Shown here piece after piece: positions 18,480 through 18,979 of a stretch of DNA of 21,436 bases. The stretch is from a virus, in the IMG/VR virus record IMGVR_UViG_3300028800_001569, positions 1-21,436 of that record. One strand, given 5' to 3'. The stretch's first letter is position 1. Every line of letters starts with the position of its first letter. The position numbers and the translations under genes are program-made. The notes below the pieces were generated by a model that did not search any database, was not told the origin of the DNA, and saw only the letters and a program-made list of their open reading frames with translations.

Positions 18480-18630
18480 CATGGCGAGACTTGGCAAGGA
18501 GGCGAAAACGGAGACGTAAGCGCTCTACCAACTGAGCTACCGGGTGTCAGACACCCAGGTGGGACTCGAACCCACGACCTCTCGATTATCAATCGAAGTA
18601 ACCGTTCTCTACAGCGCAAGTCCCGCCATG
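18480..18630 (-). ncRNA. Y RNA 1, with complete permuted tRNA-like module
   Basis: Closing stem of 14 bp pairs 18617-18630 with 18480-18493 (one G-U). Then CGCTGTA (18610-18616), upper helix GAGAACGG/CCGTTTTC (18602-18609 with 18504-18511), TTACTTC (18595-18601), an anticodon-arm-like hairpin (18582-18596), T-arm GTGGG-TTCGAGT-CCCAC (18559-18575), acceptor strands CTGGGTG (18552-18558) and CACCCGG (18540-18546) joined by a 5-base loop, then D-arm GCTC...GAGC (18522-18537). The module is a tRNA in circularly permuted order, as in bacterial YrlA RNAs. It lies in the Ro60 leader. The fold is read from complementarity; the Y RNA identity is inferred from shape and neighbour. Confidence 0.85.
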
Positions 18631-18658
18631 ACGGCGGTTGGAAGGTGCCACGACCGAA

Positions 18659-18789
18659 CGCCACAACGAGATCGAGCAAAGGTTGAACACGGCGTATGTG
18701 CCCCCTGCTGGGCGCATCCCCGTTGTGGGGATGATTGGATTCGAACCAACGAAGTAACCGTATCCTACAGCGTCGACCTCGTAGTGGCG
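18659..18789 (-). ncRNA. Y RNA 2, with permuted tRNA-like module
   Basis: Closing stem of 17 positions (one T-T mismatch, one G-U) pairs 18773-18789 with 18659-18675. CGCTGTA at 18766-18772, upper helix GGATACGG/CCGTGTTC (18758-18765 with 18685-18692), TTACTTC at 18751-18757, T-arm GTTGG-TTCGAAT-CCAAT (18734-18750), acceptor strands CATCCCC and GGGGATG (18727-18733 with 18715-18721, 7 perfect pairs, loop ACAAC), then a D-arm-like GCCC...GGGC with a short GG-containing loop. Unlike Y1, there is no anticodon-like hairpin. The 3' internal-loop strand is AACCTTTGC. Confidence 0.85.
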
Positions 18790-18792
18790 TAA

Positions 18793-18898
18793 CCGTAAAC
18801 GGAACAGAGCAAAGGGCGAGAGCGGAGACTGGGGCGAACCCCATCTTCAGTTTGGACGAAGAAGTAACCGCGCTCTACAGCGTCTGTTCCGTCTACGG
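18793..18898 (-). ncRNA. Y RNA 3, minimal type without tRNA-like module
   Basis: Closing stem of 16 bp (one G-U) pairs 18883-18898 with 18793-18808. CGCTGTA at 18876-18882, upper helix GAGCGCGG/CCGCTCTC (18868-18875 with 18818-18825, one mismatch), TTACTTC at 18861-18867, 3' internal-loop strand GCCCTTTGC. The distal part has two simple hairpins, one a TGGGG-TTCG-CCCCA tetraloop stem, and no T-arm/acceptor module. It starts 3 bases after Y RNA 2 in the array. Confidence 0.8.
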
Positions 18899-18979
18899 TG
18901 CTCGGCAAAATTCGATCACGGTTTTTCCGTTTCAGATTACAAGTCTGATGAAGTATCCGTGGCCTACAGCGCGAGCACC
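18897..18979 (-). ncRNA. Y RNA 4, minimal type without tRNA-like module
   Basis: Closing stem GGTGCTCG/CGAGCACC (18972-18979 with 18897-18904), CGCTGTA at 18965-18971, upper helix GGCCACGG/CCGTGATC (18957-18964 with 18914-18921, one mismatch), ATACTTC at 18950-18956, 3' strand GAATTTTGC. The distal part is one hairpin, TCAGA-CTTGTAA-TCTGA, which looks like an anticodon arm (TGT). Its 3' end abuts Y RNA 3. A 7-bp acceptor-like end could be mistaken for a defective tRNA-Thr. Confidence 0.75.

Follow-up and report, generated by a model that had tools for sequence, protein, structure and literature searches.

Four putative Y RNA genes with tRNA-like heads directly upstream of a Ro60 gene in a virus fragment

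The DNA analyzed here (hereafter, the window), a fragment of 21,436 bases from a virus in IMG/VR (record IMGVR_UViG_3300028800_001569), contains structural genes, a pair of genes for the salvage of nicotinamide adenine dinucleotide (NAD), and a tRNA array. It also encodes a Ro60-like protein, directly upstream of which, on the same strand, lie four adjoining units (Y1 to Y4) with the appearance of Y RNA genes (Table 1). The array of units (18979-18475, minus strand) stops just ahead of the ribosome-binding site AGGAAGGA that precedes the start codon of the Ro60 gene, about 30 nt from that codon, and Y1 either borders directly on Y2 or shares about 3 nt with it. A first-pass annotation had already interpreted 18480-18979 as an array of four Y RNA genes immediately preceding a phage Ro60 gene. 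The protein (by profile, PHROG, and fold) and the units (by covariance models built without the window) both agreed with this claim; the place was right, and the outer edges were corrected to 18475-18979.

Table 1. Positions of the Ro60 gene, the four units, and the predicted parts of Y4 in the window
Feature	Coordinates	Strand	Description
Ro60-like protein gene (TROVE + von Willebrand A)	17047..18444	-	465 aa, ATG at 18444
Y1, 83 nt	18897..18979	-	Model R1, 39.3 bits, E 1.3e-8, top match in window
Y2, 108 nt, 17-bp closing stem	18792..18899	-	Model R1, 36.9 bits, E 5.4e-8, second match in window
Y3, 133 nt	18658..18790	-	Model R2, 47.3 bits, E 1.8e-10, match over full model
Y4, 161 nt	18475..18635	-	Model R2, 115.7 bits, E 1.6e-27
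Y4 Ro60-binding core, 5' side (predicted)	18602..18616	-	Bulged C 18616, two pairs 18615-18614, UGUA, helix strand GAGAACGG
Y4 anticodon arm	18581..18597	-	UUCGA-UUGAUAA-UCGAG (U33, anticodon GAU, A37)
Y4 T arm	18559..18575	-	GUGGG-UUCGAGU-CCCAC
Y4 acceptor hairpin	18540..18558	-	CUGGGUG-ucuga-CACCCGG, 7 bp, loop joins tRNA 3' and 5' ends
Y4 D arm	18522..18537	-	GCUC-AGUUGGUA-GAGC

The Ro60 protein matched PF05731 (TROVE) with 57.4 bits against the Pfam cut-off of 23; the von Willebrand A (VWA) domain was also detected with Pfam, and PHROG likewise classified the protein as Ro60-like. The AlphaFold model (predicted local distance difference test score, 82) had the ring of helical repeats and the VWA domain with a metal ion-dependent adhesion site (MIDAS) that are expected of Ro60, and the Foldseek matches of this predicted fold were Ro60 of Thermus phage phiLo (9l5y/9kop), Rsr of Deinococcus (2nvo), and Ro60 with RNA (1yvp). 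The MIDAS motif DxSxS (D303/S305/S307) was invariant across 21 relatives of the protein. Note that the narrower vWA_Ro60 model gave 21.8, under its cut-off of 27.7.

The four units share a closing stem, next to which a single C is bulged. Two G-C pairs (GC/GC) follow, then UGUA opposite a strand of 7-8 nt, an 8-nt helix ending with CGG/CCG, and (U/A)UACUUC, which leads into a head that varies among the units; the 3' strand of each unit reads ...TTGC ahead of the closing stem. In Y4, the pairing partner of the helix strand GAGAACGG is 18511-18504. The motifs listed in the first-pass annotation (closing stem, TGTA, 8-nt helix CGG/CCG, (T/A)TACTTC, and TTGC) were all present at their place, and unconstrained minimum free energy folding, which had been suggested there as a check, gave the same architecture in 4/4 units. 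The closing stems comprised 8, 17, 15 of 18, and 19 pairs by the unit caller, and the descriptor scores of the units were 17, 26, 25, and 29.

Ro60 relatives were drawn from viral contigs, bacterial genomes, and annotated phages. A motif scan with CGCTGTA missed most relatives, the usual form being (U)GG[UC]G[UA]A. As a control for the descriptor, the part behind the motif was dinucleotide-shuffled (420 controls); a score of at least 15 was reached by 60/84 real anchors upstream of Ro60 and by 3.8% of the controls, and a score of at least 17 by 42/84 and 0.7%, respectively. In total, 418 non-identical units of the Y design were called beside the Ro60 genes of phages and bacteria (1 to 7 units per locus, with 6-7 in CcrColossus). 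The first set contained 174 units from 63 loci (the four of the window included), and the further set contained 244 more units, different in sequence, from 96 more locus records, some of which represent one contig fetched twice.

In the alignment of 29 short units (window excluded), two-sided changes were found at 17/18 pairs, and the covariation score was 0.708, as compared with 0.203 ± 0.020 after shuffling and at most 0.222 with the partners slid; for 29 tRNA-like units, the corresponding values were 0.649 and 0.186 (shuffled). The covariation of the stems, originally proposed on the basis of the four units, was thus borne out by units from outside the window. The sequence of the closing stem varied freely with the pairing kept, the two pairs behind the bulge occurred as GG/CC, GC/GC, AG/CU, GA/UC, and GU/AC, and the 7-nt 3' strand was conserved (consensus GCYUGUU), though it had been left out of unit calling. 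The bulged C next to the closing stem, which had been noted as a resemblance to known Y RNAs, is present in all four units, but the bulged base of the wider family is mostly U (379 of the 418 units, with C in 35); judged from these sequences, the C is a feature of the sublineage of the window. It is commonest with a C-G second pair, that is, in this sublineage, in a Bradyrhizobium prophage (L006/L059), and in locus L027, where a homologue of Y3 is located (L027 -249).

Covariance models R1 and R2 were built from the 29 short units and the 29 tRNA-like units, respectively, without the window, and the whole window was searched unfiltered with R1. The two models recovered Y1, Y2, Y3, and Y4 (Table 1). 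R2 gave 31-45 bits for the ordinary tRNAs of the window, from which the score of Y3 is barely separated; the Y stems are, however, paired in the Y3 match and unpaired in the tRNA matches. When R1 was applied to 300 kb of relatives, 58/58 matches were on the Ro60 strand, nearly all of them within 1.5 kb upstream, with the reservation that some of the units recovered had been in the training set.

These results bear on the possibility that the units are degenerate or rearranged ordinary tRNAs of the neighboring array, which we consider extremely improbable. ARAGORN did call a tRNA-Ile in Y4, and the tRNA array surrounds the locus; however, the Rfam tRNA model gave 25.9 bits for Y4 (cut-off, 29), the arms are permuted in order and enclosed by covarying Y stems at many loci, and Y1 and Y2 have no tRNA body. 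Ordinary-tRNA identity for whole units was ruled out by the covariation of both unit sets together with the R2 search of the window. It is also very unlikely that the hairpins form a cis-acting leader, that is, elements for processing or stabilizing the Ro60 mRNA instead of separate RNAs: the abutting units on the same strand, which stop just ahead of the ribosome-binding site, would suit such a leader, but the binding-site-like core is conserved in every unit, the heads are tRNA-like, and units are found downstream of Ro60 in Microcystis phage Mvi-JY20 (L055:4381-4595), crAss-like cr106_1 (L056:4453-4530), and phiLo. The four units are almost certainly Y RNAs by their sequence and predicted structure, and the Ro60 of the window very probably would bind them.

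The heads differ among the units. Y4 runs from the anticodon arm through the variable region and the T arm to the acceptor hairpin and then the D arm; its predicted head corresponds to an entire tRNA in circular permutation, with the opening between nt 26 and 27, where the Ro60 stem is attached. The head of Y3 lacks an anticodon arm; it consists of a T arm (18750-18734), a hairpin resembling the acceptor (18733-18715), and, at approximately 18713-18700, a degenerate hairpin similar to a D arm. Y4 and Y3 thus both carry the tRNA-like domain looked for in a bacterial or phage Y RNA, and at least six acceptor pairs were found in 26/28 units with tRNA spacing. The head of Y1 is a hairpin, UCAGA-CUUGUAA-UCUGA (18948-18932), which resembles the anticodon arm of tRNA-Thr(UGU) with no other tRNA part, and that of Y2 consists of two small hairpins. 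The first-pass annotation overlooked the tRNA mimicry of Y4 and Y3 and the ARAGORN call within Y4. Among deposited sequences, several annotated tRNAs lie inside tRNA-like Y RNAs: tRNA-Thr of Xanthomonas phage 10KY502B (L057:2322-2389), tRNA-Gln of Caulobacter phage CcrColossus (L051:2128-2195), and tRNA-Ser of Brevundimonas phage Gurke (L050:2766-2840).

Y RNAs of phages and bacteria have been reported before, as has their mimicry of tRNA through circular permutation (PMC11472068 for the permutation), so that the core finding is not new. Like YrlA of Salmonella (RF02553; 6CU1) and the Y RNA of Deinococcus, the units lie beside Ro60/Rsr and have a basal stem for Ro60 and, where the head is a permuted tRNA, T, acceptor, and D arms (PMC8394870; PMC11472068). 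The published description of the YrlA module names a D, a T, and an acceptor arm (PMC8394870), the same three hairpins that make up the Rfam YrlA structure; YrlA contains no separate anticodon hairpin, the Ro60 stem taking the place of the anticodon arm, whereas in Y4 the stem is at nt 26/27 and the arm is kept. Y3 represents the three-arm YrlA form. Relative to the literature consulted, the head with an anticodon arm, outside the Rfam YrlA model, is new, although it may have been mentioned earlier elsewhere. Jumbo phages (PMC7824862) and Vibrio phage pir03 (PMC7765460) with Ro60 genes/Y RNAs are known, YrlA in several phages is cited in PMC7765460, abundant noncoding RNAs (ncRNAs) near the Rsr gene were reported for Listeria phage CKA15 (PMC12282133), and mycobacteriophage Y RNAs (Chen et al. 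2014) are cited in PMC12282133. These known phage Y RNAs are likewise small RNAs adjoining a phage Ro60/Rsr gene on the same strand, but the window has four units with four different heads. As in vertebrate Y RNAs, a single C is bulged from the lower stem of the units, which also has an internal loop, and the upper part is variable (PMC4726728), but the heads are unrelated.

For units with tRNA spacing, tRNA numbering was fixed from the T loop. In the first set, U33 was present in 27/28 units and a purine at position 37 (R37) in 28/28, the background at the same index being 0.34 and 0.72, respectively, and a shift of the register abolished the signal. In a held-out set (newly fetched loci with the known units removed and the rule unchanged), the counts were 28/30 for U33 and 29/30 for R37, with at least four anticodon-stem pairs in 27/30; both sets together gave 55/58 and 57/58. 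The anticodon stem covaries at the inner pairs, while overlap with the conserved UUACUUC leaves its 5' strand little room to vary. The anticodons are diverse (UGU 17, GCU 8, GUU 7, UGG 6, and others), but nt 36 was U (42) or G (11) in 53/58 tRNA-like Y RNAs as compared with 94/161 ordinary tRNAs from these loci (Fisher, 1.4e-6, without correction for relatedness). The loop classes defined by nt 36 are those read by the t6A37 and m1G37 enzymes. Between close relatives, counterpart Y RNAs carry different anticodons, namely GUU in Olaya and UGU in 10KY502B (L048/L057), and CUG in CcrColossus and UAG in CcrPW (L051/L052). In an analysis designed after part of the data had been seen, the 203 units without a T-arm loop contained 46 hairpins with a 7-nt loop and U33 + R37, as compared with 9.8 ± 2.9 in 200 shuffles (maximum, 17), and 12 NUNNUAA loops, as compared with 0.34 in the shuffles. 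The arm is also present in Y RNAs of bacterial chromosomes (Singulisphaera and Enterovirga) and is therefore no phage invention.

In other bacteria, the stem of the Y RNA is established as the part that binds Ro60/Rsr and the head as the tether for PNPase, and DusA and TruB, two tRNA-modifying enzymes, also act on YrlA (PMC8394870). For the window, the analysis shows the architecture, conservation, covariation, and location of the units and their likeness to tRNA and its anticodon arm; transcription, Ro60 binding, and any effector are inferred. The explanation that we prefer, and that is probably correct as a whole, is that the four Y RNAs are made together with the phage's Ro60 and that tRNA-derived heads engage tRNA-acting proteins. 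Each RNA would be a two-part module: the Ro60-binding end would be formed by the outer part, which extends from the closing stem with its bulged C and the two pairs behind it, through the internal loop of UGUA and the 7-nt strand, to the 8-bp helix and UUACUUC, and the inner part would be a tRNA-derived head differing by unit (an anticodon arm in Y1, two hairpins in Y2, T/acceptor/D in Y3, and a whole tRNA in Y4). Loaded with various heads, Ro60 would present tRNA surfaces to host or phage proteins that act on tRNA, and the enzyme would thereby be either recruited to Ro60-bound RNA (as a nuclease tether) or occupied (as a decoy for an anticodon nuclease). That the heads are recognized by such proteins is somewhat likely, and the kept anticodon arm favors, as far as sequences can tell, a role in which the anticodon loop is read.

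Alongside this explanation, three other readings were weighed. A pure tether and gate of the Deinococcus/Salmonella type, in which the Y RNAs cover the outer surface of Ro60 and tether PNPase (RYPER) so that structured RNA is degraded in infection, is possible but doubtful; the tRNA head would be a mere handle for the nuclease and the anticodon arm a leftover of the source tRNA. This is the closest tested precedent (PMC7790460; PMC8394870), and Y3 shares the T/acceptor/D architecture with the YrlA model. However, an arm left over from a tRNA would be expected to degenerate, yet most of the 58 units keep U33, R37, and the stem pairing, anticodon-arm features also occur in short units without any other tRNA part, and the fragment has no PNPase gene (host PNPase could serve). 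More tentatively, the Y RNAs may display anticodon arms on Ro60 as the selected part of the head, which would occupy or recruit readers of the anticodon loop (anticodon nucleases or position-37 modification enzymes); the arm type displayed would be a U-turn loop, mostly NUNNUAA or with G36-G37, retained also by heads that lack all other tRNA parts. The third reading, in which host anticodon nucleases or sensors of tRNA fragments are bound or occupied by Ro60-Y particles and the real tRNAs are thereby spared, appears rather unlikely. Phage tRNAs have been proposed to evade or counter tRNA-targeting defenses such as anticodon nucleases (PMC10264068), the authors of the Salmonella study raised the possibility that the tRNA-like domain acts as a competitive inhibitor of an anticodon nuclease (PMC7790460), and the diverse anticodons, which differ even between orthologous Y RNAs of close relatives, and the location within a large phage tRNA array would fit such a decoy; on the other hand, the bias of nt 36 follows no single nuclease known to us, and the arm also occurs in bacterial chromosomal Y RNAs and hence is not phage-specific.

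Several observations weigh against the preferred explanation. The anticodon-arm statistics rest on related sequences with no tree correction, although the effect survived when heads at least 80% alike were collapsed (26 left; U33 in 23/26 and R37 in 26/26). The Y2 loop, UCCAAAC, lacks U33, and no sigma-70-type promoter was found upstream. ARAGORN accepted restored tRNAs even when the anticodon arm had been shuffled (121/140) and was therefore not used as evidence for the arm. The search against the Rfam Y RNA and YrlA models, a further proposal of the first-pass annotation, yielded no match above the cut-off: the RF02553 YrlA model gave 42.3 bits for Y4, under its gathering cut-off of 69 bits, and did not match Y1-Y3. 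At the gathering cut-off, the matches of Rfam in the window were tRNAs only, the vertebrate Y RNA model had no match in the window at E up to 5, and RF02553 found nothing above the cut-off in the control genomes. Finally, R1 matched nothing in mycobacteriophage Loanshark and nothing in the neighborhood of gp165, the Ro60-like gene of Listeria phage P100; therefore, the core is not universal, and the evidence from the ncRNAs of CKA15 (PMC12282133) is not transferable. P100 gp165 (L270:36571-38091), which is a candidate counterpart of the CKA15 Ro60-like protein as judged by position, matched DUF2828/DUF7788 in Pfam, not TROVE.

Why bacterial Y RNAs mimic tRNA and why many phages carry Ro60 are standing questions. 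With an anticodon arm conserved in both whole-tRNA heads and short Y RNAs, 'tRNA mimicry' becomes a specific, testable hypothesis (enzymes that read the anticodon loop), open to test in cultured phages such as Caulobacter phage CcrColossus and Xanthomonas phage Olaya. The models and the motif (bulged U/C, GG or GC, [UC]GNA, CGG-UUACUUC, and GCYUGUU) can also be used to locate unannotated or misannotated Y RNAs.

Weak but well-placed units were found by distant Ro60 genes: three in Bacillus phage G (L275:2326-2412, 2526-2613, and 2757-2832), one in Gordonia phage Neville (L274:2781-2855), and one just behind the gene in Thermus phage phiLo (L272:4705-4768, 20 bits). The phiLo protein is the top match of the window's Ro60 in sequence and fold and its unit is comparable, but the protein is about 24% identical, and there is one weak unit, not four. 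Given these weak units, GUUACUUC may be an old Y RNA motif. As for the surroundings in the window, the NAD-salvage genes encode a fusion of nicotinamide mononucleotide adenylyltransferase and Nudix (11753-12871, plus strand) and nicotinamide phosphoribosyltransferase (12918-14300, plus strand). The large tRNA array (14539-21089) is on the minus strand, as are the Y units, with 17 calls by ARAGORN, one of which is the false tRNA-Ile within Y4, and 14 by Rfam; a small HNH gene (19270-19488) is located among its tRNAs.
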